A stretch of 32,987 nt of DNA from a virus, in the IMG/VR virus record IMGVR_UViG_3300008267_000192, positions 1-32,987 of that record; one strand, 5' to 3'. The notes under the pieces were generated by a model. The model had not been told where the DNA came from, searched no databases, and saw nothing but the letters and a program-made list of their open reading frames with translations. The number at the start of each line of letters is the position of its first letter. Positions within the stretch are counted from its first letter, which is position 1. Both the position numbers and the translations under genes were made by a program. Positions 6,175 to 32,987 of the stretch are shown piece after piece.

Positions 6175-6804
6175 TTATTCTATGTTTATAGTGTATGGAA
6201 TTTGATCCAATACTGTTGATGTGGTAGCATTCGTTACCACTATGTTTCCTGTACCAACTCCTATACCACCGGGAGTACTTACCCCGATTTTTAAAGTATC
6301 TGTATTGCTTATTGTGAGTGCAGTGCTGTAGGTTTGGGCAGCAGCACCGTTTAAACTATATTTAATAGCAGATGGGTGTGCGCTTCCCGTACCTGTAGAA
6401 GTTGTAATGGTTACTGATATAGAAGCCCCGAGACCGCTGAATGCCACGTTTGCTGCGCTTGCTACAAGCAATTGTGCACCCGTTGACGATGCCCAATAAT
6501 CAGTAGAAGCAGTATCCATAGTATCAAGGTTACCCCAATCAGCTGGGGTCAATGTTGGTGTGTAATCGACAGAAACTGTAGTTCCATTATCACCACTGTC
6601 TACATCATAACCCATCATGAACATGTCTTGGAATGACACATTGTTCATAACCATGCCATTGTTGACGTTTTCCCACAATTGTGTGAGATCATTCCAGCGG
6701 AATGGACCCATTGGGGTTGATTTGATTTTTGGTCCATAACCGCCCATGCCGACTTGCTCGTTCATGGCGGCAAAGAAGGTTTTCATTGTTTTTCTTGCGC
6801 TCAT
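6175..6804 (-). CDS. Probable virion structural protein, late gene
   Basis: A 209-residue protein beginning MSARKTMKTFFAAMNEQ. The first 17 residues are basic and amphipathic, rather like a T4 capsid-targeting leader, although the possible cleavage site MNE is not a perfect L/I-x-E. Residues 100-209 are a Thr/Ser/Gly/Ala-rich beta domain (ISVTITTSTGTGSA, then IKYSLNG, then IVVTNA) typical of a decoration or Ig-like fold. The ATG lies directly after TCTAAATA-ATTTT, so its own late transcript would be leaderless; it is also last in the leftward operon. The stop faces the dUTPase stop with two bases between. No catalytic motif is seen. Confidence 0.55.
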   Translation of the reverse strand: MSARKTMKTFFAAMNEQVGMGGYGPKIKSTPMGPFRWNDLTQLWENVNNGMVMNNVSFQDMFMMGYDVDSGDNGTTVSVDYTPTLTPADWGNLDTMDTASTDYWASSTGAQLLVASAANVAFSGLGASISVTITTSTGTGSAHPSAIKYSLNGAAAQTYSTALTISNTDTLKIGVSTPGGIGVGTGNIVVTNATTSTVLDQIPYTINIE

Positions 6805-19026: not shown

Positions 19027-19099
19027 TCCTCTGTAGCTCAGTCGGTAGAGCGGGAAGCTGTTAACTTCCATGTCACTGGTTCGATTCCAGTCGGAGGAG
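19027..19099 (+). tRNA. tRNA-Asn (anticodon GTT)
   Basis: A complete cloverleaf of 73 bases: acceptor TCCTCTG (19027-19033) with CGGAGGA (19092-19098, one G-U pair), D stem GCTC/GAGC, anticodon stem GGAAG/CTTCC with loop CTGTTAA and anticodon GTT at 19060-19062, T stem ACTGG/CCAGT around TTCGATT, discriminator G99. CCA is not fully encoded (CAT follows), so it must be added. It sits eight bases after the reductase stop, probably on the same transcript. It would help decode the Asn-rich late proteins. Confidence 0.95.
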
Positions 19100-19107
19100 C
19101 ATAAAAT

Positions 19108-19135
19108 AACCCCCTAGGAGCAATCCTGGGGGGTT
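19108..19135 (+). terminator. Very stable hairpin, probable terminator or tRNA 3' boundary
   Basis: A perfect 12-bp stem (AACCCCCTAGGA with TCCTGGGGGGTT, one G-U pair) closed by a GCAA tetraloop of the GNRA type. It starts nine bases after the tRNA. The usual T-run is replaced by TTATAAATATT, because a late promoter begins at the last base of the stem. Confidence 0.7.
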
Positions 19136-19142
19136 ATAAATA
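19135..19142 (+). promoter_or_regulatory. Canonical T4 late promoter TATAAATA
   Basis: The full T4 consensus octamer, then TTGGT, then ATG 19148. The predicted start is the A of the start codon, giving a leaderless mRNA. Its first T is also the last base of the hairpin stem just upstream. Confidence 0.75.
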
Positions 19143-19147
19143 TTGGT

Positions 19148-19996
19148 ATGCTGAGATTTAAACAATTTTTAACCGAAGGTATTGTAAGACCATCAAAATT
19201 ATCGATGGACCCTGCATTTAAGGCATCAGATTTAAGCAATGAGTTTGCTGCATTTTCAAAAGAAATGAGCGATTCTGATTTTTTGCAATCTTTTGCAACC
19301 CAAATAGAGGAATTAAAAGATAATCCAGCATACCGTGGAACATATAATGAGTGGAAATATGTTTTAAATAACCCGTCAAGTAGTCCAACAGAAAGATTGG
19401 AATCAATGTTGGCTGTGGCAAGATCCAATGTAGATCGTCAACAAAAACTATTAGATAATCCTGCAGCTACAATTGACGATGCTACTCAGGCAAAACCAAG
19501 ATCTATTTTTAATTCAGACAAGCCAAAAAATTTTGGTGATGTGATGAACCAAATGATGAGGAAAAATGCACTTGAAGATAAATTTGGTCCAAATATAGAA
19601 GTAACTGGAACAATTCCACCAAAGGACTCATACTTAGATAAGTTAAAGATGCCAGACGGTTTTGCCGCAACCGAAATGGATGCCAATAAATTAAGAATGT
19701 CAAGAGCAGCTAAATCCCTTGGAAAAACTGCTATAAAAATGTTGCCAGTGGTTGGAACTGCAGCATCTATAGCCGCCATGGCGGACAGAGCACAAGCAGG
19801 AGATTATGTTGGCGCTGGCTTGGAGGGAGCTTCTGAACTAGCAGATTACATTCCCGGCGCCGGTACAGCTGTATCTGGGTTAATACAAGCTCATCTTGCA
19901 GACCGAGATATGAGTGATGAAGAAAGAAAAGAAGCCAATCAAAAAATGGCCAGACAGGCTTTAAGATCGATGAACGTCCACAGCCCAAGATACTAA
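19148..19996 (+). CDS. Candidate capsid-targeted internal protein with hydrophobic C-terminal hairpin
   Basis: A 282-residue late protein. It begins MLRFKQFLTE-G, very like the T4 capsid-targeting leader MKTYQEFIAEA, with LTE fitting the L/I-x-E rule of the T4 prohead protease gp21. Residues 20-190 are charged and helical. Residues 198-248 form a small-residue hydrophobic hairpin (MLPVVGTAASIAAMADRAQ and DYIPGAGTAVSGLIQA), a plan also present in the protein at 22133. The last 30 residues are charged. I infer encapsidation with cleavage after residue 10. The hairpin might insert in a membrane when the protein enters the host. It has a leaderless late promoter and a terminator follows. Confidence 0.55.
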   Translation: MLRFKQFLTEGIVRPSKLSMDPAFKASDLSNEFAAFSKEMSDSDFLQSFATQIEELKDNPAYRGTYNEWKYVLNNPSSSPTERLESMLAVARSNVDRQQKLLDNPAATIDDATQAKPRSIFNSDKPKNFGDVMNQMMRKNALEDKFGPNIEVTGTIPPKDSYLDKLKMPDGFAATEMDANKLRMSRAAKSLGKTAIKMLPVVGTAASIAAMADRAQAGDYVGAGLEGASELADYIPGAGTAVSGLIQAHLADRDMSDEERKEANQKMARQALRSMNVHSPRY

Positions 19997-20011
19997 TAAC
20001 AATCCCTAAAT

Positions 20012-20044
20012 AAAAATCCTCCCCTTTGGTGGGGAGGATTTTTT
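20012..20044. terminator. Bidirectional Rho-independent terminator
   Basis: AAAAATCCTCCCC (20012-20024) pairs with GGGGAGGATTTTT around loop TTTGGT, followed by T's. Because the left side has an A-run, it can also work on the minus strand. It closes the gene 19148-19996. Confidence 0.85.
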
Positions 20045-20052
20045 CATAAATA
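20045..20052 (+). promoter_or_regulatory. Late promoter core CATAAATA directly after the terminator
   Basis: CATAAATA, then TTTTT, then A at 20058 as predicted start. The next ATG-bearing rightward frame only begins at 20164 and has its own TATAAATA, so the product of this promoter would be the GC-rich structured segment that starts three bases later. Confidence 0.5.
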
Positions 20053-20993: not shown

Positions 20994-21291
20994 GTCTTTC
21001 AAACCGGCCAGCGTTAAAGGTTCTTGATTGCTCAATTCGGTCTTGCTGACTTCTGGGGGCTGCTCTCTTGACCTTATCCATTACTTCATTCCAAGCACTG
21101 CCGCAAACCTTGGTAGGAGTCAGCGTGGTGTCATAGGCAACAGAGTTTCTTTGTTCTCCCCAGTCCTTGGTTACTTTCTTTTTATTGCAATTGGGACAGG
21201 GCTTTTTTGTTGGAGCATCATTTTCAGCCATTTTAAGAAAAAGCTCAAACGAATGGTCACAGGATTCACATTTAAAAGCGTAGTTAGGCAT
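20989..21291 (-). CDS. FmdB-like zinc-ribbon protein
   Basis: A 100-residue protein. The N-terminus MPNYAFKCESCDHSFE with C8/C11 and then CPNC with C32/C35 is the zinc-ribbon pattern of the FmdB family of putative regulators, which usually starts M-P-x-Y-x-F-x-C-x-x-C. The remaining 60 residues (WGEQRNSVAYDTTLTP and a basic helix ending GRFERH) are specific to this protein. In phages such proteins may bind nucleic acid or assist transcription, but no role is proven. It overlaps the upstream HNH gene by eight bases, so they are co-transcribed leftward. Confidence 0.7.
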   Translation of the reverse strand: MPNYAFKCESCDHSFELFLKMAENDAPTKKPCPNCNKKKVTKDWGEQRNSVAYDTTLTPTKVCGSAWNEVMDKVKRAAPRSQQDRIEQSRTFNAGRFERH

Positions 21292-21781
21292 TTTTTTCTT
21301 TTCTAAAAGTAATTAGCATGTGTTCAAACAAAAAGCCATAAGATGGTTCTTTGGGTTTGATTTTTATTTGCATTTTAGCCTCTTTGAGGCTTCTGTTTCC
21401 CTTGAAAGTATTACAGTCCCTGCAAGCAGCCACCATATTGGTCCAGGTTGAACCGCCGCCCTTGCTCCTTGGAACTATGTGGTCCACGGTTGCGGTCTTG
21501 TCACAGAGGTCTATGCCGCAGTACTGGCACTTGTAGTGGTCTCTTTTGAAGATATTCTTTCTCGAAGGGGCAACCTTCTTGAAGGGAAGTTTAACATAAT
21601 ACTTCAAAATCAATACTTTTGGAATCTTTATGATTTTTGATACGGATATTACTTCGTAATATTCGCCAACAGATTCGTCCACCCATACTTTGTCTTTATC
21701 CAAGAGCTTAAAAGCTTTGGAGATAGTGATAATATTGAGGGGCGTATTGTCTTGATTCAACAGGAGTACCTGTTTCTTCAT
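21284..21781 (-). CDS. HNH endonuclease with CxxC zinc motifs
   Basis: A 165-residue protein from ATG 21781 (MKKQVLLLNQDNTPLN). The HNH core is C85-x2-C88, VDH with D100/H101, N115 in TWTNMV, then C120-x2-C123 and N124. This is the common McrA-like or RNA-free phage HNH type, close to proteins with the start VLxLNxxxxPLxI found in many bacteria and phages. It cuts DNA, and may act as a homing enzyme or a nuclease against other DNA. I rejected the 228-residue frame because its extra N-terminus crosses the divergent promoter region. A leftward late core is five bases plus spacer away. Confidence 0.88.
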   Translation of the reverse strand: MKKQVLLLNQDNTPLNIITISKAFKLLDKDKVWVDESVGEYYEVISVSKIIKIPKVLILKYYVKLPFKKVAPSRKNIFKRDHYKCQYCGIDLCDKTATVDHIVPRSKGGGSTWTNMVAACRDCNTFKGNRSLKEAKMQIKIKPKEPSYGFLFEHMLITFRKEKNA

Positions 21782-21791
21782 ACTTCTTAAG

Positions 21792-21799
21792 TATTTATA
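21792..21799 (-). promoter_or_regulatory. Leftward late promoter TATAAATA of the HNH gene
   Basis: Minus strand: TATAAATA, CTTAA, then predicted start, GAAGT, ATG 21781; the leader is about five bases. Four bases away begins the rightward late core at 21804, forming a divergent late pair. Confidence 0.6.
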
Positions 21800-21803
21800 T
21801 AAA

Positions 21804-21811
21804 TCTAAATA
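21804..21811 (+). promoter_or_regulatory. Rightward late promoter core TCTAAATA
   Basis: TCTAAATA, TTTTA, then a predicted start near 21817, and ATG at 21822 after about five bases. It heads the rightward late genes 21822-23164. Confidence 0.6.
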
Positions 21812-21821
21812 TTTTACAGCC

Positions 21822-22136
21822 ATGGATAATAACAAGAATAAACAATTTTTTTGGCAAGTCAAGGATTTTATGACCAAAAACAACAATCCTGCACCCAAAC
21901 CAAAGCAAAACAGTCTTTTGAATACAGTGACTAATGTTATGAATTCCTCAAAAAATGTTGGAACTCCCAATATTTATGAGGCCCGTAACGGTATAGTAAA
22001 TGGATCAAGCCAAGTAAAGAATTCTGTTTCAAATGTTTTGAACACAGTAAAAAATAGCAATGACAAGCAAAAAGCCAGTTGTGCTGGTTATTCAAACAAC
22101 ATAACCTCGAATCCTTTCAACTTATTCAAAAAATGA
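21822..22136 (+). CDS. Asn-rich small late protein, unknown
   Basis: A 104-residue protein, strongly enriched in Asn, Lys and Ser (MDNNKNKQFFWQVKDFMTKN, later SNNITSNPFNLFKK). Two similar segments, LLNTVTNVMNSSKNV and SVSNVLNTVKNSND, look like an internal repeat. No membrane helix or known domain is seen. It is the first gene after the divergent late promoter pair and overlaps the next gene by ATGA. Asn-rich late proteins of this size are often structural or internal to the head, but this is a guess. Confidence 0.5.
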   Translation: MDNNKNKQFFWQVKDFMTKNNNPAPKPKQNSLLNTVTNVMNSSKNVGTPNIYEARNGIVNGSSQVKNSVSNVLNTVKNSNDKQKASCAGYSNNITSNPFNLFKK

Positions 22137-23164
22137 AAAATAAAAACAATATTGTTTATGGCATCTTGGAAGAAAGGTACTTAAAAAATAAAGTATCTTA
22201 TCTCGTCAAACAGCATTATACTTTGGCAGAAGCTTATGGCTGGCAAGATGCAAAACAATTTGTAAATGACATATATCAAGGAATGGCTGCAAATCCATTA
22301 GAGTTTACACAAAGATATTTTGCAAATCTATTCTCAGATCCAGAAACATATCACTCTGCTGCGGCTTTCTCTGGAACAATACCCGTTTACGGTGATGCAC
22401 TCAGCATTGCAGACTCAGCCTTATACATGGCTCAAGGTGATACAGAATCAGCTAAACTTGCTTTGCTCTCATCGATCCCCTTTATTGGAGCCCCGGCGGA
22501 TGCAAATAGGGTGATGAAAGCCGTTGCTAAATTGGATACAATCCCAAGCAAACTTGATAACTTACCAAAATCAACACTTGTTTTGCCTGATAATCCAAAA
22601 ACAGTTCCAACGACGATTCCGGACTGGCAAGCCCCTAAACCACAGTTGCCGGGTTCAAAGCCAATAGAAATCGAACCCCAATTTGATCCTAATAGACCAT
22701 TCTGGAAGCCCGGACAAAAATCACCTGAACCATATAGTCCGCCACCGATTCCAGAAATACCCGCACCAAAACCATCTTTCCCAAGAAGGGCTCCAAGAAT
22801 TCCTCTGCCAGATATGCCAGAAGAAGAAAAAAATCTTGGAACAGATCCAATCTCATCAACAGGAATTGAACCATCCGAATTTGAAGCTTCTCCAAGAGTT
22901 GAAGGTGAAACCGGTATGCAAATACAAGCATATCCAAAACCAGATTTTATGAGAGCAATTCTTTCTAACTTGAAGCTTGCAACATCCTTGAAAAAAGAAG
23001 AAGATGAAGAGGATGATACTCCAGACTATGGCAGTGAAATGCAAAACATTGATTTTAAAAATGAATTAAAAAATGTAGAGCCAGACGCCAGCGCTAAAAA
23101 AATTGATGTAGATTTGCAACAAACAAAGTTAGGAAAATATTCTGGATCTTATAGAGTAAAGTGA
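22133..23164 (+). CDS. Late protein with hydrophobic hairpin and proline-rich region (candidate internal or ejected protein)
   Basis: A 343-residue protein from ATG 22133 (MKNKNNIVYGILEE); the earlier in-frame start lies in the preceding gene. I-L-E at 11-13 fits the prohead protease rule L/I-x-E. Residues 82-120 form a small-residue hydrophobic hairpin (TIPVYGDALSIADSALYMAQ then LLSSIPFIGAPAD) of the same plan as residues 198-248 of the protein at 19148. Residues 155-240 are rich in Pro (PYSPPPIPEIPAPKPSFP), then a highly acidic tail contains KKEEDEEDD. No enzyme motif is seen. Such a layout suggests an extended protein that may be packaged and threaded out, which is inference. Confidence 0.5.
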   Translation: MKNKNNIVYGILEERYLKNKVSYLVKQHYTLAEAYGWQDAKQFVNDIYQGMAANPLEFTQRYFANLFSDPETYHSAAAFSGTIPVYGDALSIADSALYMAQGDTESAKLALLSSIPFIGAPADANRVMKAVAKLDTIPSKLDNLPKSTLVLPDNPKTVPTTIPDWQAPKPQLPGSKPIEIEPQFDPNRPFWKPGQKSPEPYSPPPIPEIPAPKPSFPRRAPRIPLPDMPEEEKNLGTDPISSTGIEPSEFEASPRVEGETGMQIQAYPKPDFMRAILSNLKLATSLKKEEDEEDDTPDYGSEMQNIDFKNELKNVEPDASAKKIDVDLQQTKLGKYSGSYRVK

Positions 23165-24411: not shown

Positions 24412-24419
24412 CATAAATA
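24412..24419 (+). promoter_or_regulatory. Late promoter core CATAAATA
   Basis: CATAAATA, ATTTA, then A 24425 as predicted start, one base before ATG 24426. The mRNA would be leaderless or have one extra base. Confidence 0.65.
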
Positions 24420-24425
24420 ATTTAA

Positions 24426-26807
24426 ATGAACTTCAAGGATCTTTTATTACGTTTAAACGAAGAAAGTCGTACCCAGGCAGATTCCTTCCGAACCACTGGA
24501 GAGGCTTTAAAGAAGGAAAAGGCGGTATCCACGGCCCCTGACAAGAAGGCTAAGGATGCTGCCAGAAAGCGTGCAGAGCGATCTAAGCAGATTCCTCGAA
24601 GCAGAAAAACAAAAGAAGAGCTGATCAAAGAAGTTGTTCCTGTAAAAACAGGTACAGGAAACGTTCAGTTAATTTTTAGAGATTCCTTCGACAAAGGAAG
24701 ACATACAAAATTGATGAAAGGCGAATCCCTTTCATTTGAAGAAGCAAAGTCTTTCACAAAAGATCCAAAATTTGAACAAACCGGTGCTTCAAAACTTCTC
24801 TTTGGTGAATTAAAAATAAAAGAAGAACCAAAAGAAAAGAGCGCTGAACAGGGAGCTGCAACCGCTCCAGGAAAAGAAGTAGAGAAAGAGGCGGAAGAAC
24901 AACAGGAAAAGGGTGCTCCTGAAGGCAAGCAGGCAAAGAAGGCAACCAAGGAAGATATCTTCAACATGCTTGGCCAGATGTCTCCCGAGCAACTTGCACA
25001 AGTTCCTTTCGAAGTTCGTCAAGAGTATTTCATGCAAACAAGGAAGCCAACTTCCAGTAATGCATTTGATAGCATGACATTCGAAAAACTGAGCAACTTG
25101 TTTGGTATTAACAGCCTAACAACCACCCCATACAACCAACAAGTAATCAACGCATTGGTTCTGTTGGCGAAGCTGAAGGCGGGTGCAAGCGAACAAGAAA
25201 TTCAATCATATGCCGCATTGTCACCAACAGCATTTGATTTTACCAAGATCGCATTTTCTCAGGCCAGAAAGATTCTGTCGCAAATGGGAGAGCAGTGCAT
25301 CCAAAACCTTGTTTCCACTGTAGAGAACAGCACTTCTGGAATAACCAATGAAGGAAACGTGGACATGGAGTGCGGTGGCTACAAATTCAAGGTAGCTGCT
25401 GGCGGTGAATTTTTGCTTACAACCGACAAGTTTGACCAAAAATCAAAAACCTATCGTGGTTTGATCAACGCTGCAATGGCCGAGACTCTTCAGAATCCAA
25501 GCATTGCAAAAGATCCAAAAGTAAAAGCTTTCGCAGATTCGGTAAATCAAGCAGGAAGCAAGTTTTCAAACGTATTGGTAAACCAACAATCCTTCGCAAT
25601 GATCAAGAAGAACCCAGAACTTCTTGCACAATTGCAACAAATGGAAATCCAAGATTCATCCGGTCAAAACCTTGGAAAGCTTGTTGATGAAAAGGGAAAT
25701 CTGAATGGTAAAGCTTCATTCGAGAAATACAAAGAGGAAATCTCAAAACCCTCTGTTTCTCTTTTCAAGAACAACCCAAAGAACCCATCTGAGTTTGTTG
25801 ATAACTTCATTCAATCCATACTCAAGATGTATTATCGCGGAGACAATCTAAAGGATCCCGAAAACGCTCCAAACCATCTGGTTACCCAAAATGGTATATT
25901 CAAACTTAGCGATGACTACATTGAAGAAATCGCAAGAACTGCAACTGTTTCCGTAAAGACAGTAAAGAAAGAACCAGGAACAGACAATATTCTCAAGGGA
26001 AATAAGCCATCCGAACTTTTCAATAGATTTGTAACAGTTGTTGAAGCCAAAGAGCAACCAACAAAAAATAAATTTTCTGTAGAAGATCTTTTGATCCGAA
26101 AAGAAACACTGGATCCTGTTCAAATGGCTCTGTCCCAAGCAAGTCAGAGCATGGACTTTGATATCAATGTCAGCCTGTTGCCAGGATTTACTCCAAAAGA
26201 TCTCAATACCATTCAGTACAATTACGTAAAAATTGGAAAAAAGACTGTAAAGATTCCTGTAGAAAAAACAGAGCTGGTTGCACTGCAGATGCAGGAGCAC
26301 GTTGCAATTCTAAGCAATGAACTGTTGATTGAATCACTTACAAACAATTTTGTTCTGGAAAAACTAATAAAGAGCGGATTGTTGACATCCGAAGAGGCAG
26401 AATCAATCGTCACTCCGGGGATATTGGCCGAAGAAAACTATATTAAGGTAGTTTACAATAACCTCTTGGAAAGAGTCCAAGAAAATCCAAACATACTTGT
26501 TTACATACTCAACGCCTACAATAGCGATCTTTATGAAAAATATGTTCGTGATTACAAGATGGAATACAGGAATTATCACGGAAAACCCAAGCAAAGAAAA
26601 GAACGCGCCGCAAGAACAAAGGCCAGAGAGCAGTTGATAAAAAAGGGTAGAGTCAAAAAAGGTGATGGCAAGGACGTAGACCATAAGGTTCCTCTCCGAA
26701 AGGGTGGTTCAAAAGGACTAAATAATGTGAGAGTCAGGGACAGATCTAACAATCGTTCCGACAATGGCCATAAAAAAGGCGAGAAACAAAATAAGGATTG
26801 GGAATGA
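24426..26807 (+). CDS. Large late protein with capsid-leader-like N-terminus and C-terminal HNH-like motif
   Basis: A 793-residue protein. It starts MNFKDLLLRLNE-ES, with L-N-E at 10-12 as a possible prohead protease site. Residues 30-65 are Lys/Arg-rich, 135-185 are a Glu/Lys/Ala-rich low-complexity segment, and a long mixed domain (about 190-720) is unassigned. The C-terminus is basic (KQRKERAARTKAREQLIKK) followed by VDHKVPLRKGG (D752, H753), GLNNVRVRDRSNNRSDNG, an HNH-type signature lacking CxxC zinc ligands. DNA cleavage or DNA binding is likely for the tail. The combination suggests a nuclease packaged in the head, which is a hypothesis. It overlaps the next gene by ATGA. Confidence 0.6.
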   Translation: MNFKDLLLRLNEESRTQADSFRTTGEALKKEKAVSTAPDKKAKDAARKRAERSKQIPRSRKTKEELIKEVVPVKTGTGNVQLIFRDSFDKGRHTKLMKGESLSFEEAKSFTKDPKFEQTGASKLLFGELKIKEEPKEKSAEQGAATAPGKEVEKEAEEQQEKGAPEGKQAKKATKEDIFNMLGQMSPEQLAQVPFEVRQEYFMQTRKPTSSNAFDSMTFEKLSNLFGINSLTTTPYNQQVINALVLLAKLKAGASEQEIQSYAALSPTAFDFTKIAFSQARKILSQMGEQCIQNLVSTVENSTSGITNEGNVDMECGGYKFKVAAGGEFLLTTDKFDQKSKTYRGLINAAMAETLQNPSIAKDPKVKAFADSVNQAGSKFSNVLVNQQSFAMIKKNPELLAQLQQMEIQDSSGQNLGKLVDEKGNLNGKASFEKYKEEISKPSVSLFKNNPKNPSEFVDNFIQSILKMYYRGDNLKDPENAPNHLVTQNGIFKLSDDYIEEIARTATVSVKTVKKEPGTDNILKGNKPSELFNRFVTVVEAKEQPTKNKFSVEDLLIRKETLDPVQMALSQASQSMDFDINVSLLPGFTPKDLNTIQYNYVKIGKKTVKIPVEKTELVALQMQEHVAILSNELLIESLTNNFVLEKLIKSGLLTSEEAESIVTPGILAEENYIKVVYNNLLERVQENPNILVYILNAYNSDLYEKYVRDYKMEYRNYHGKPKQRKERAARTKAREQLIKKGRVKKGDGKDVDHKVPLRKGGSKGLNNVRVRDRSNNRSDNGHKKGEKQNKDWE

Positions 26808-28210
26808 GCAACAAGAATATCCAACCACTTTTAGAAAAAGTATTTGAAAAATCCGGACTTGGAAAGTGGTTCAACAAGGAATCAGCCGGTGGCGGTCCTG
26901 GTTGGGATAGGTACAACACCAAGGGAGAACGGATCGGCAAGTGCGGTGATGCCGAAGAGGGTGAGTCTTATTCGGCTTGCTTGAGCAAGCAAAAGGCCAA
27001 GAAGCTAGGAAAAGAAGGCATTGGTTCTTTTGTTAGAAGAAAAAGATCTGCCCAAAAGAAGGCTGGACGTGGAACAAAAGGTTCAGTCAAAGGCAAAGGA
27101 AAAAAACCAGTATTCGTTAAAACTGGTGTGACAGAAGTAAAAGAATGCTTTGATTCTTTCTTGGTTGAAAGCTCTGCCAAGGTATTCGAGATGAGTTTTA
27201 TCTCGGTTGAGGCAAACGATCTTCTTCCATGCGACATCGTAATAAATGAGTCTGGTCAGATATTTGACATTGATTACATTATTGAAAATAATGGAAACCT
27301 GTTGATTGGAATGACTGACTTGGATGGAAATGAATTTGAAGAAAATTTTAATCCTTCCACCATCATGGGGTTCATAGACAATACTGAAGGACAATCTTAC
27401 ACCGAATATGGTGATAAAGTCGAAGTATATGAAGAGAGTGGAAGCAAAGTAAAGCTAAACAAGATCATGCGCGGAGATGTTAAAAAATACAAAGTTTACG
27501 TAAAAAATGACAAAGGAAATGTTGTCAAAGTAAATTTTGGTGATCCTAACATGGAAATCAAGCGCGATGATCCAAACAGAAGAAAGAACTTCAGAGCAAG
27601 ACACAACTGCGACAACCCGGGCCCAAGATGGAAGGCTCGTTACTGGGCCTGCAAAACCTGGAGCTCAAAGCCAGTCAGCGCAATGTTGAAAGAAGACATT
27701 GAATTGCTGGGCGAGGCTAAGAAAAACAAGCCAAAAGATCCTAAAAAGTGGTCAAGTTGCATTGCTCAGGCAAAGAAAAAATTTGAAGTTTATCCATCTG
27801 CTTATGCAAATGCATGGGCAGCAAAATGCTACAAGAGCAAAGGTGGAAAATGGAAGGCCCTATCAGAAAATATTTCTGATAATATTGTAAAATCTGTAAA
27901 TGAAACAAATTACAATCCAAATTTGTATGGTTTGATGAAAGAAGCAAACGACAGGCATCCTAGTTATTTTCCTTCATGGTATGACATTTATCACTATTGG
28001 AAAAATACTCCTTTCGGTATAAATCCTCGCCCAGAAAAAGACCGTTCAATAGAAGGCGAAGATTTTCATTATAGATTTTATGACCCATTAAATCCAAATG
28101 CGGAACCATCTCCAGTTGCACCCAGTTTTCATCATCCATTTGACCCATTTGTTTTTCCGGTAACGGGACCATATCAACAACCTGGAAATAATAGTACAGT
28201 CAGTCCTTGA
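26804..28210 (+). CDS. Multi-module basic protein with three Cys/Trp/Lys-rich phage domains, unknown
   Basis: A 468-residue protein from ATG 26804; TTG 26798 is an alternative. Module 1 (about 18-90) is GPGWDRYNTKGERIGKCGD, then YSACLSKQKAKKL and a basic tail, a small domain of unknown function common in large phages. A middle beta region (about 120-250) follows. Module 2 (about 262-285) is FRARHNCDNPGPRWKARYW then ACKTW. Module 3 (about 313-350) is KKWSSCIAQAKKKFEVYPSA then YANAWAAKCYKSKGGKW. I recall both from marine phage proteins without known function. The tail is Pro/His/Tyr-rich. Basic Cys-containing modules suggest DNA binding. It is coupled to the HNH-tailed gene, so the two products may act together. 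Confidence 0.55.
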   Translation: MSNKNIQPLLEKVFEKSGLGKWFNKESAGGGPGWDRYNTKGERIGKCGDAEEGESYSACLSKQKAKKLGKEGIGSFVRRKRSAQKKAGRGTKGSVKGKGKKPVFVKTGVTEVKECFDSFLVESSAKVFEMSFISVEANDLLPCDIVINESGQIFDIDYIIENNGNLLIGMTDLDGNEFEENFNPSTIMGFIDNTEGQSYTEYGDKVEVYEESGSKVKLNKIMRGDVKKYKVYVKNDKGNVVKVNFGDPNMEIKRDDPNRRKNFRARHNCDNPGPRWKARYWACKTWSSKPVSAMLKEDIELLGEAKKNKPKDPKKWSSCIAQAKKKFEVYPSAYANAWAAKCYKSKGGKWKALSENISDNIVKSVNETNYNPNLYGLMKEANDRHPSYFPSWYDIYHYWKNTPFGINPRPEKDRSIEGEDFHYRFYDPLNPNAEPSPVAPSFHHPFDPFVFPVTGPYQQPGNNSTVSP

Positions 28211-28219
28211 TAAAAATTA

Positions 28220-28227
28220 ACTAAATA
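28220..28227 (+). promoter_or_regulatory. Late promoter core ACTAAATA
   Basis: ACTAAATA, TAATT, predicted start 28233, then ATG 28237 after four bases. An in-frame TTG at 28231 would lie outside the transcript, which supports ATG 28237. Confidence 0.6.
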
Positions 28228-28236
28228 TAATTGACC

Positions 28237-28767
28237 ATGAAATTTAAACAATTATTACAAATTACCGGCCCAATTCATGAAAATTCAGGTGAACACACCT
28301 TTGGCGGTGGTTTGTTCATCGGAGATCCTTCAGCACCAAAGCTCCCAAGCACCCTGACGGACAAAGGAACTTTCAACATTAAGCTTCCAAGATCACTGGA
28401 CGCAATCAATGCTCTTCTTTATTCTTTGAGCCAAAAGGACTTCGTTGATCCAGATTCGGTATTGAACGTCGTAAAGCAAAAGCTCAACCATTTTGGCTTT
28501 GACTTTCAACAAGTCACTGCTCTTCCAGATGGTGAAACAAAAATTAAGCTCTATCAATACGGTAGCCCCTACATCGGTGTCTATGGAATGACACCACATG
28601 CCAATGTCGATGATACCGGATTCTCGACAGATGGTATAACAGAAAAACTCGGACATGGATTGGTTCTTTCAATTAATGTGGTCAAGCAACCAAATTATTT
28701 GCGTAAAGTCCAAATGGTGATTATTCCTGATAATGTTTTGGACTCAGACTGTGGTTGTGAACACTAA
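28237..28767 (+). CDS. Late protein with capsid-leader-like N-terminus, unknown
   Basis: A 176-residue protein beginning MKFKQLLQITGPIHE-N, with I-H-E at 13-15 as possible protease site. The rest is a compact alpha/beta domain: FNIKLPRSLDAINALLYSLS, VLNVVKQKLNHFGFDFQQV, ETKIKLYQYGSPYIGVYG, HGLVLSINVVK, and a Cys-containing end DSDCGCEH. No family is recognised. The late promoter just upstream and the leader-like start put it in the candidate head-internal set. The next gene starts before its stop (overlap 35 bases for ATG 28733, 11 for GTG 28757). Confidence 0.5.
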   Translation: MKFKQLLQITGPIHENSGEHTFGGGLFIGDPSAPKLPSTLTDKGTFNIKLPRSLDAINALLYSLSQKDFVDPDSVLNVVKQKLNHFGFDFQQVTALPDGETKIKLYQYGSPYIGVYGMTPHANVDDTGFSTDGITEKLGHGLVLSINVVKQPNYLRKVQMVIIPDNVLDSDCGCEH

Positions 28768-29182: not shown

Positions 29183-30868
29183 ATGGGTCGCCCACAGTAT
29201 ATTCCCTCATTCTTTTTTTATAAATTTGCACAAACACTTGCAGATCCGTATACTTCTTTTGAAGCATATCGTGCAGGAAACATCGATGCTAGTGGCAATA
29301 TAACTGGAAACGAAAGCAATATAGATCCATTTGAGTACTTTGTAATCAAGCTCAAAAAAATATTGGAAGAATTGCCACCTGGATCTACCAAGTATAAAAC
29401 GAACAATCTATTTGGAGTCCTTCAGCTGTTCTCGGAGCATGCAGAAAACTTTGGAATCACCAATGAAGATTTTCAAATCTTGGTTGAAGCCGAATTGATG
29501 GCAAAAGAATTAACCGAAGACATGACAACCGGAGGAGCAGCTGGAGCATTGGGAACCCCAGCAGAAGCCCCCGGAGCAAACAAAGGAAATGTCTCTGGCT
29601 ATGATCCAGTAATGGGATCAATGGCAACTAGATCTGGTCCTGTCAATATGTTTGCTTCTGTTGAGATGTTTAACATTCCAACATCGGAGTACAAGCTCTT
29701 TAAGCTGGATAAAGGATATCCAAAGACTGCAACTGGAAACTATGTTCGCAGATACGGACAAAGAAACTCAAATCAGAAGCTAGCCGTCAGAGATGAGGAT
29801 AGCGGAGAAATATACTGGTTGCCTGCACCCAACAAAAAAACATTTGTAGAGACATATAATTTAAAAAATTTAAAATTATTGGATGAAAGTGTTGTCGGGG
29901 ATTATACGGACTCTGTAAAGGATGATGAAATAAACGTGGCAACAAGAACAAATGCCCAAGAAATTAAGCCTCTGGAAATAAGCGGAAAAGAATTAAAAAC
30001 TACCGCTGAAATAGTAAGACAAAGATATGAAGATGAAAAGCAAAAAGAAGACGAGCGCAGGAAGCAACCGTATTTAAAAGCTGGATCTGCAGAAAAATAT
30101 GCAGCAGGAACTGAGTTAGAAAAAAGTATTCCAACTGCACTTGAGATAATGAAAAGACTGGGCAATAGAGGAGCGGAAATTGCTCAAAAATGGCATGGCC
30201 AATTCAGACACTCGGCAGAAAAAGAAATATCAACACACGGGGAACCGGATTACTACGGTTTGGGAAATTTAGAGGGGTTAGAAGATTTAGAAAATCCTGA
30301 AGATCTCATTAAAGCTTTTGATGCAAAAAATATAAAAGCCAGAGGACAAGTAAACATAGATCCAACAGAGTTTTTTAAAGATACAGAAGTTGGTGGTGTT
30401 AAGGGATTCCCAACTGTTTCTGGAACCCCTGCCCATATAGCAAGAGCATTGGCAGCAAAAGCCGGTGACACAAGAGAAGCTGCAAGAATAAGATCTGATG
30501 TTCTTACTCCGTTTTATTCAGACCCTGGAGTTCAAAATCAACTTCGCACCCATTACATGACTCAAACTTTTCCACAAAATAATGATGTGTCATTAAGATT
30601 GGCAACAAAAAAAGGAAGAGAGTTAATTCCAATAGGCGTTGCGGATGCTGAAACGATCTTAAGAAAAGGAATCGCCGTAAGAACAACTAGGGGCGGCTCT
30701 CAACCAGTGGAAAAATCAAAATTGGGAATACAGTCTAGCAGTGATTTTGGTGTTATTGCTGTTGGAAAAAATGATCCTCTCCAGACACTGTCTAGAGAGG
30801 ATCAATCTAGTTTGGAAAGATTGTCGCCAGAACTAAGAAGATTTAGTTCTTGGTTAAGAACAACTTAA
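29183..30868 (+). CDS. Large late protein of unknown function
   Basis: A 561-residue protein from ATG 29183 (MGRPQYIPSFFFYKFAQTL). Residues 1-105 are helical with PFEYFVIKLKKILEELP. Residues 115-140 are a Gly/Ala/Thr-rich linker, a beta segment follows (EYKLFKLDKGYPKTATG, RRYGQRNSNQKLAVRDEDSG). Residues 265-300 form a charged helix (IVRQRYEDEKQKEDERRKQP), and the C-terminal third contains SGTPAHIARALAAKAGDTRE and ends RRFSSWLRTT. No enzyme motif or capsid-leader start is seen. A virion-associated role is likely from its late promoter and neighbours. Its stop overlaps the convergent leftward gene by four bases. Confidence 0.5.
   Translation: MGRPQYIPSFFFYKFAQTLADPYTSFEAYRAGNIDASGNITGNESNIDPFEYFVIKLKKILEELPPGSTKYKTNNLFGVLQLFSEHAENFGITNEDFQILVEAELMAKELTEDMTTGGAAGALGTPAEAPGANKGNVSGYDPVMGSMATRSGPVNMFASVEMFNIPTSEYKLFKLDKGYPKTATGNYVRRYGQRNSNQKLAVRDEDSGEIYWLPAPNKKTFVETYNLKNLKLLDESVVGDYTDSVKDDEINVATRTNAQEIKPLEISGKELKTTAEIVRQRYEDEKQKEDERRKQPYLKAGSAEKYAAGTELEKSIPTALEIMKRLGNRGAEIAQKWHGQFRHSAEKEISTHGEPDYYGLGNLEGLEDLENPEDLIKAFDAKNIKARGQVNIDPTEFFKDTEVGGVKGFPTVSGTPAHIARALAAKAGDTREAARIRSDVLTPFYSDPGVQNQLRTHYMTQTFPQNNDVSLRLATKKGRELIPIGVADAETILRKGIAVRTTRGGSQPVEKSKLGIQSSSDFGVIAVGKNDPLQTLSREDQSSLERLSPELRRFSSWLRTT
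30772..30804 (+). other. Hairpin within the end of the 29183-30868 gene
   Basis: TGATCCTCTC (30772-30781) pairs with GAGAGGATCA (30795-30804), 10 bp perfect. After one mismatch, AGA pairs with TCT around a five-base loop. Like the hairpin at 6119-6146, it lies shortly before the stop at a convergent gene junction and has no T-run. Confidence 0.4.
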
Positions 30869-32136: not shown

Positions 32137-32144
32137 TCTAAATA
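32137..32144 (+). promoter_or_regulatory. Late promoter core TCTAAATA
   Basis: TCTAAATA, ATTTT, ATG 32150: predicted start on the A of the ATG, identical to the leftward arrangement at 6802-6817. It supports ATG 32150 over the longer frame from 32057. Confidence 0.65.
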
Positions 32145-32149
32145 ATTTT

Positions 32150-32803
32150 ATGAATAAGAAAATTAACCGCTTTTCCTGGATCCACGATTTAAATCGATCT
32201 GCCTTGGAAGCAAAAATGATTGCCGAAGCAAAGCTTTTTGCCAAAAAAGTAAATTTAAAAGAAGCCTTGGGCGATGATTTGAGCGATGTAAATCCACAGG
32301 ATTTTGCAAAAATGGTTATGCAGGGTCTCGGGCAAACCAGAGCTACCACAATTAAGTCGGGTGGTGGTGACCCAATGATCTATCGCAAAGAAAAACAAGC
32401 AAAGATGGCTGCAGAAAGATCTGCACTTGGAAGCCGCCCCGATTTGCGAGTAACAGACGTAAATGGAGATGGTTCGGAGAATGCCGAAGACGTAAAAGCA
32501 GATGCTAAAAACTGGGAAATGGGAGAGACACAATCAAGATTGCCAAGTTTTGATTGGGCCCACCAAGAAGCAACTCCTGTTTCGCGTGTTCACCCACCAG
32601 CTCCAAATTTTGGTAACATGACCCCAAACGAAATTACCAGAAAAGCCAATGAGCAGTTGAAAGCCGATGCGGTAATAGATGATCTTTATTCTAGAATGGA
32701 TGCCGATGCCGAGATGAAGAGATTCATCAAGACTGCACCACCCGGAAGAAATTACACAATTCAAGATTTAAGATACATTGCAGATTTGCTTGGAGGCCGC
32801 TAA
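32150..32803 (+). CDS. Late protein, candidate head-internal, unknown function
   Basis: A 217-residue protein from ATG 32150 (MNKKINRFSWIHDLNRSALE). The N-terminal 35 residues are basic and amphipathic with I-A-E at 23-25, a possible prohead protease site, although the leader is less typical than in the other genes. Residues 65-115 are charged (TRATTIKSGGGDPMIYRKEK, then NGDGSENAEDVK), and a C-terminal helical region follows (EITRKANEQLKADAVIDDLY, RRxxADLLGG-like end IADLLGGR). No family is recognised. It overlaps the next gene by one base (TAATG). Confidence 0.5.
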   Translation: MNKKINRFSWIHDLNRSALEAKMIAEAKLFAKKVNLKEALGDDLSDVNPQDFAKMVMQGLGQTRATTIKSGGGDPMIYRKEKQAKMAAERSALGSRPDLRVTDVNGDGSENAEDVKADAKNWEMGETQSRLPSFDWAHQEATPVSRVHPPAPNFGNMTPNEITRKANEQLKADAVIDDLYSRMDADAEMKRFIKTAPPGRNYTIQDLRYIADLLGGR

Positions 32804-32987
32804 TGAAAAAGCTAGAAGATTTTTTAGTTACTGGAATCTATGAAGAGATCGGTGATTCACCGAGTCCTGCAATGCTTAAAGCATATACCAGGAAGTATCA
32901 GAAGCAAGGCTACAATCCCACAGAAGCAGAAACCCTAGCCCAAGACGAACTCTCTACATACAGAGAACTTGGGAAAAAAGGATTTAA
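32803..32987 (+). CDS. Late protein with capsid-leader-like start (3' end cut by window edge)
   Basis: The first 61 residues of a gene running off the right edge. The start MKKLEDFLVTGIYE-E carries I-Y-E at 12-14, matching the L/I-x-E rule, and resembles the starts at 19148 and 28237. Next comes a helical charged stretch (SPAMLKAYTRKYQKQGYNPT, then EAETLAQDELSTYRELGKKG). The ATG shares one base with the preceding stop. Assignment to head-internal proteins is inferred from the leader only. Confidence 0.55.
   Translation, partial: MKKLEDFLVTGIYEEIGDSPSPAMLKAYTRKYQKQGYNPTEAETLAQDELSTYRELGKKGF

Follow-up and report, generated by a model that had tools for sequence, protein, structure and literature searches.

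The window, a 33-kb IMG/VR fragment analysed over its whole length of 32,987 nt (IMGVR_UViG_3300008267_000192), carries genes for a gp43-type polymerase, UvsX/gp41/gp61-type replication proteins and nucleotide metabolism, and a tRNA-Asn at 19027. This gene content marks the source, read from sequence, as an uncultured T4-like myovirus. The polymerase shares no more than 43% identity with those of isolate phages, cyanophages being the nearest, and has relatives of up to 98% identity among viral contigs. No relatives sharing the same DNA were found in the phage collection. Fourteen records of relatives were read, and gene starts were called with our own script.

Downstream of a reductase gene and the tRNA-Asn, a gene encoding a 282-aa protein with a variable body (19148–19996; features are on the plus strand unless stated otherwise) stands alone between two terminator-like hairpins, with no immunity gene adjoining it. 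The left hairpin (19110–19133) ends the upstream tRNA-Asn unit, and the right one lies at 20013–20045. A T4-type late promoter (TATAAATA, 19135–19142) is placed 5 nt upstream of the ATG, followed by a capsid-targeting-like leader, MLRFKQFLTE (19148–19177), whose predicted cut is after E10. Residues 188–275 (19709–19972) form a glycine-rich hydrophobic C-terminal module that is present in most proteins encoded at this position (alignment A1). The promoter is kept in 22 such loci, where TATAAATATT(G/A)(G/A/C)T-ATG leads into a MLRFKQFLxE-type leader.

The middle of the gene differs between relatives. The window matches the DNA of one of them (L131) at about 94% identity across the flank; the match breaks off at 19171 and picks up again at 19721, within the C-terminal module. 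With another (L133) the corresponding positions are 19178 and 19728. In L130 and L132 identity ends at 19109 and resumes at 20007, the whole gene being absent between the two terminators. The bodies, grouped by hand, fall into at least 11 types. Five of these carry HExxH, whereas among clade proteins 250 aa or longer the motif occurs in 15 of 589 (p = 1e-5), and one body type has a weak SprT-like match. The locus thus combines a constant leader with a variable body, as a polymorphic locus does, and by these alignments it is a swap slot: promoter and leader are kept, the C-terminal module is usually kept and the middle is exchanged.

The body of the window's own slot protein matched no Pfam family, and its only full-length relative found, among the viral contigs, is L228 (33%). 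The AlphaFold model was unusable (pLDDT 40). PHROG matches, to peptidases and endolysins, were confined to the C-terminal module. A tblastn search with the module found related segments in 132 phage records, mainly from cyanophages; in the regions inspected these segments lie near tail-hub genes, a neighbourhood that agrees with a membrane role for the module and does not prove it. An ADP-ribosyltransferase identity considered for L148-type bodies gained no support from Pfam, with no match for L148, or from PDB profiles, with no match for A2.

In T4, the prohead protease gp21 cuts after L/I-X-E, and in the internal protein IPIII residues 4 and 7 act in targeting and residues 8 and 10 in processing (PMC9026906). 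In the T4 record the ipII and ipIII leaders both read MKTYQEFIAE/A (the slash marks the cut), and that of ipI reads MKTFKEFTSTTTPVSTITE/A, a form with a displaced cut. The 19148 leader, MLRFKQFLTE/G, matches all four functional positions (F4, F7, L8 and E10) and so has the hydrophobic or aromatic residues at 4 and 7, I/L at 8 and E at 10 of a capsid-targeting sequence. The preliminary description had proposed T4-like leaders at this gene and at 24426, 28237, 32803, 22133, 32150 and 6804, and each of these starts is present in the window. In two of them, 24426 and 28237, F3, L6 and L7 go together with a displaced cut resembling that of ipI; 32803 has L4, F7 and L8, likewise with an ipI-like displaced cut. 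No F/Y-x-x-F/L start is present at 22133, 32150 or a further gene, 26804, which we counted against a cargo leader at these three. A leader ending in [LI]xE was found at 19148, 24426, 26804, 28237, 32150 and 32803, and in their orthologs.

The largest of these genes (24426–26807) starts MNFKDLLLRLNEE and has a late-type promoter (CATAAATA, 24412–24419) 6 nt upstream of its ATG. Its leader, MNFKDLLLRLNE (24426–24461), has a predicted cut after E12; leader length varies from about 11 to 19 residues in the family, and [LI]xE ends it in all 31 distinct orthologs. The 793-aa product carries a C-terminal HNH-type domain (residues 705–790, window 26538–26795; phrog_4590, E = 9e-21), for which Foldseek gave matches to viral HNHc proteins at 44–57% identity. 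Structure matches in the viral library covered this domain only, apart from a weak match to cyanophage S-RIM50; the model has a pLDDT of 68, and no PDB entry matched at E < 1. Searches of 50,697 records of isolate phages found relatives neither of the body of this protein nor of the 28237 protein. A separate HNH-type protein (CQYCGIDLCDKTATVDHIVPRSKGG) is encoded on the minus strand at 21284–21970.

The 28237 gene starts MKFKQLLQITGPIHEN, with a late-type promoter (ACTAAATA, 28220–28227) 9 nt upstream; the leader of its 176-aa product, MKFKQLLQITGPIHE (28237–28281), keeps [LI]xE followed by N, S or Y in 17/17 distinct orthologs. At 26804, the leader MSNKNIQPLLE (26804–26836) of a 468-aa protein was absent from the preliminary list; by its orthologs (16 of 16 distinct ones with [LI]xE followed by K) this protein belongs to the leader set, and it has short domains in common with marine phages. 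The gene at 32150, which starts MNKKINRFSWIHDLNRSALEAKMIAEA and has its promoter (TCTAAATA, 32137–32144) 5 nt upstream, bears a long leader, MNKKINRFSWIHDLNRSALEAKMIAE (32150–32227), with a predicted cut after E26. It had been graded as a weak case; [LI]xE is kept in all three family members and repeated about 12 residues further on in the two orthologs (G014 and G015), a better standing than that grade.

Where the window ends, it truncates a gene that starts MKKLEDFLVTGIYEE, with the leader MKKLEDFLVTGIYE (32803–32844). Its counterpart in G015 (61173) reads MKKISDFLVSYIIE. The G014 gene at 97391 agrees with it in MKKLEDFLVTG and in the DNA surrounding the start, beyond which lies an unrelated 815-aa body. 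Compared with G014, this is, on the alignments, a second locus at which the leader is kept and the body replaced. The gene at 22133 starts MKNKNNIVYGILEE and has a possible leader, MKNKNNIVYGILE (22133–22171). Three of its four tblastn relatives have [LI]LE near the start, and the fourth is a slot protein (L151), with which it has a hydrophobic domain in common. Its membership is plausible from these matches.

Two candidates were dropped. The start at 6804 (MKTFFAAMNEQ, with an in-frame Met at 6786) has a late-type promoter, and its proposed leader failed because the E is not conserved: MNE in the window is replaced by SLGEQ, MQGQ, MQSG, MQAN and FLNQ in orthologs. At 29183 the leader is absent both from the window and from 11 relatives.

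When all families were scanned without prior screening, [LI]xE was fixed near the start in 5 of 43, whereas shuffled sequences gave a mean of 0.03 and never more than 1. No other residue was fixed after [LI]x in as many families as E, K coming next with two. Two of the five matches, 23178 and a 100-aa family, are probably accidental because the motif lies within conserved body sequence. The strict leader pattern matched 1–7 genes per long record in the window's clade; in 98 kb of T4 it found ipII and ipIII and nothing else, and in the complete cyanophage Sf-CH5 it found nothing. Across the clade the leader pattern occurred at 35 of 3074 start-region ATGs, compared with 5 of 7341 internal Met codons (p = 3e-14). 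Among 70 distinct N-termini picked on residues 4, 5, 7 and 8 only, 53 have E at residue 10, compared with 7 of 43 internal occurrences. The statistics count sequences from related contigs and so treat them as more independent than they are, a weakness that affects the evidence from body exchange and orthologs less. Another reading is that a short amphipathic start containing an E is commonplace and the resemblance carries no meaning, which is conceivable for individual proteins, 6804 for one and perhaps 22133. Chance is already disfavoured for the main members by the enrichment at starts, the excess of E at residue 10 and the lack of false matches in T4 and the cyanophage, and as a general account it is extremely improbable. 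In relatives, some small proteins with MKKFKEFLENYDVYLD-like starts (G003 6674, G014 about 114380, L093 18644) have the E one residue earlier, at 9 and not 10, possibly an uncut variant.

The bodies behind the leaders are unrelated, as had been claimed: all-against-all BLASTP of the window proteins with leaders removed gave no significant match. The 44 type A proteins fall into 15 body clusters. The likeness to T4 leaders was also borne out, both position by position and by the persistence of [LI]xE across orthologs whose leaders otherwise vary. On sequence grounds the leader proteins would thus be a variant of the T4 internal-protein type; the leaders themselves are confirmed, and the cargo model is well supported at the level of sequence.

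Most of these genes had been described as promoter-proximal. A late-type promoter precedes 19148, 24426, 28237, 32150 and the rejected 6804; 22133, 26804 and 32803 have none. In the four accepted cases the promoter (TATAAATA or CTAAATA) lies 5–9 nt from the ATG. Distances from TAAATA to the ATG in the window (19135–19148, 24412–24426 and 32137–32150) and in late genes of relatives peak at 5, 7 and 10 nt, where a Shine-Dalgarno sequence is mostly absent, with a second mode at 24–27 nt, where one is present; in the T4 late genes checked the distance was always at least 13 nt. If transcription starts at a T4-like spacing, the 5-nt distance would mean that the mRNA begins at the ATG. The conserved start might be a DNA cassette of late promoter and first codons, kept for gene-exchange homology or for the first-codon needs of mRNAs lacking an untranslated leader, with no targeting role for the peptide. 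At the slot, DNA identity extends from the tRNA across the promoter as far as codons 8–11 and ends there, and many late genes of the clade have their ATG 5–10 nt from TAAATA with no Shine-Dalgarno sequence. The same peptide pattern, however, is also found where the promoter is missing, downstream of ribosome-binding-site-like sequence and encoded by other codons; [LI]xE is kept although leader length varies; and the T4 internal proteins that the peptide matches are translated from ordinary mRNAs. We regard a DNA cassette alone as quite improbable.

The gp21, gp22 and gp23 genes would lie beyond the ends of the window fragment. A search of 17 relative records, many of them fragments themselves, detected the gp21 protease family (PF03420) in five, all of them long relatives. 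Near gp21 in three of them (G002, G003 and G004), [LI]xE sites are present in gp22 (MISE/A, TISE/A and IIKE/N) and in gp23 (HLYE/D, HLVE/D and YLTE/I). Adjoining gp21 and gp22 in G003, a 204-aa protein (98615–99229) starts MDREFLEAFILTE/A, and its hydrophobic segment (PIIGTAA) resembles the C-terminal module of the slot proteins.

Targeting and cleavage by gp21 could serve head assembly and not delivery, were the leader proteins part of the prohead core or scaffold like T4 gp67, gp68 and gp22. T4 core proteins also contain [LI]xE sites, and the genes at 24426, 26804 and 28237 are conserved at the same place in many relatives, so that these three may be core or structural and not delivered cargo. 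The variety of bodies in the slot and its emptiness in two relatives, the replaced body at 32803 and the enzyme-like HExxH motifs speak against such a role and fit dispensable, swappable cargo, at least at those loci. For the set as a whole we consider a core or scaffold function unlikely.

Relatives of the window phage, and not the window itself, carry a second, longer start, MNYLTNYYKNLSEQLQ...[LI]xE, on at least 14 unrelated bodies (for example G002 80484/80522, G003 132085/132467, G004 87747 and G014 2441). In all 28 non-redundant MNYLTNYYKNLSEQLQEQIN-type starts [LI]xE falls at residues 19–38 (shuffle mean 0.34, maximum 0.61). One consensus query, run by tblastn against the 50,697 isolate phage records, gave a single poor match (E = 0.8). 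From this pattern we read the start as a putative second packaging leader.

Taken together, a shared cuttable tag on unrelated proteins and a swap slot suggest that the virus carries a group of packaged proteins destined for the host. We think it probable that the leaders are capsid-targeting sequences of the T4 internal-protein type, and that their proteins are packaged and cut by gp21, with at least the non-core bodies being ejected. We infer packaging, cleavage, ejection, the membrane role and the functions of the bodies as follows. Late in infection, the leader genes would be transcribed from T4-type late promoters or in operons behind them. The amphipathic N-terminus, hydrophobic at about positions 3–4 and 6–8, would bind the scaffold core of the growing prohead, and a gp21-type protease would cut after [LI]xE, at residue 10 in the 19148 protein and further along the leader at 24426, 26804, 28237, 32150 and 32803. 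Cutting would release the bodies into the head interior, and those outside the core, at least, would leave with the DNA. The 19148 gene would be an exchangeable cassette of constant promoter and leader, swapped body and usually constant C-terminal hydrophobic module; some slot bodies in relatives appear metalloprotease-like, and the module may help cargo to meet or cross the cell membrane.

More tentatively, the system may be a modular head-packaged effector system, in which the slot cassette, its C-terminal module usually constant and membrane-active, allows enzymes to be swapped between near-identical phages and the second leader class has cargo of its own. If so, each genome would deliver about 10 or more proteins with its DNA. 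The leader could serve as a tag for listing delivered proteins from sequence alone, with exact cut sites predicted, and the slot as a natural catalogue of candidate host-takeover or counter-defence proteins.

Several known systems invite comparison. Like bacterial polymorphic toxins, the slot proteins join constant parts to an exchangeable enzyme-like part; unlike them, the variable part sits between an N-terminal leader and a C-terminal module, and the slot holds no immunity gene as a partner. In the giant phages SPN3US and phiKZ many head proteins are cut by a gp21-like protease at a short motif ending in E (PMC9026906); these phages are unrelated, and we liken them by description, not by propeptide sequence. 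T4 Alt is a head-packaged ADP-ribosyltransferase, which gp21 cuts and which is ejected along with the DNA (PMC9026906), and an enzyme carried, cut and ejected in this way is what we propose here from sequence. No sequence match to Alt was found, and the ADP-ribosyltransferase-like look of the L076, L148, L155 and L160 slot bodies is an impression only. The closest likeness is to T4 IPI, IPII and IPIII; such internal proteins have been described chiefly from T-even phages infecting enteric bacteria, in which they inhibit restriction enzymes at infection (PMC12373910). By comparison, the bodies described here reach a larger size, up to about 800 aa, with enzyme-like motifs in relatives and a constant C-terminal module at the slot, and the promoter lies 5–9 nt from the ATG, with no Shine-Dalgarno sequence at 19148 and 24426. 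Both groups have a 10-residue leader with functional positions 4, 7, 8 and 10, an [LI]xE site, an ipI-style variant with a displaced cut, late expression, unrelated bodies behind one leader and a polymorphic locus. The T4-type leader logic, together with a swap slot and enzyme-like bodies, is now seen in an uncultured aquatic T4-like clade.
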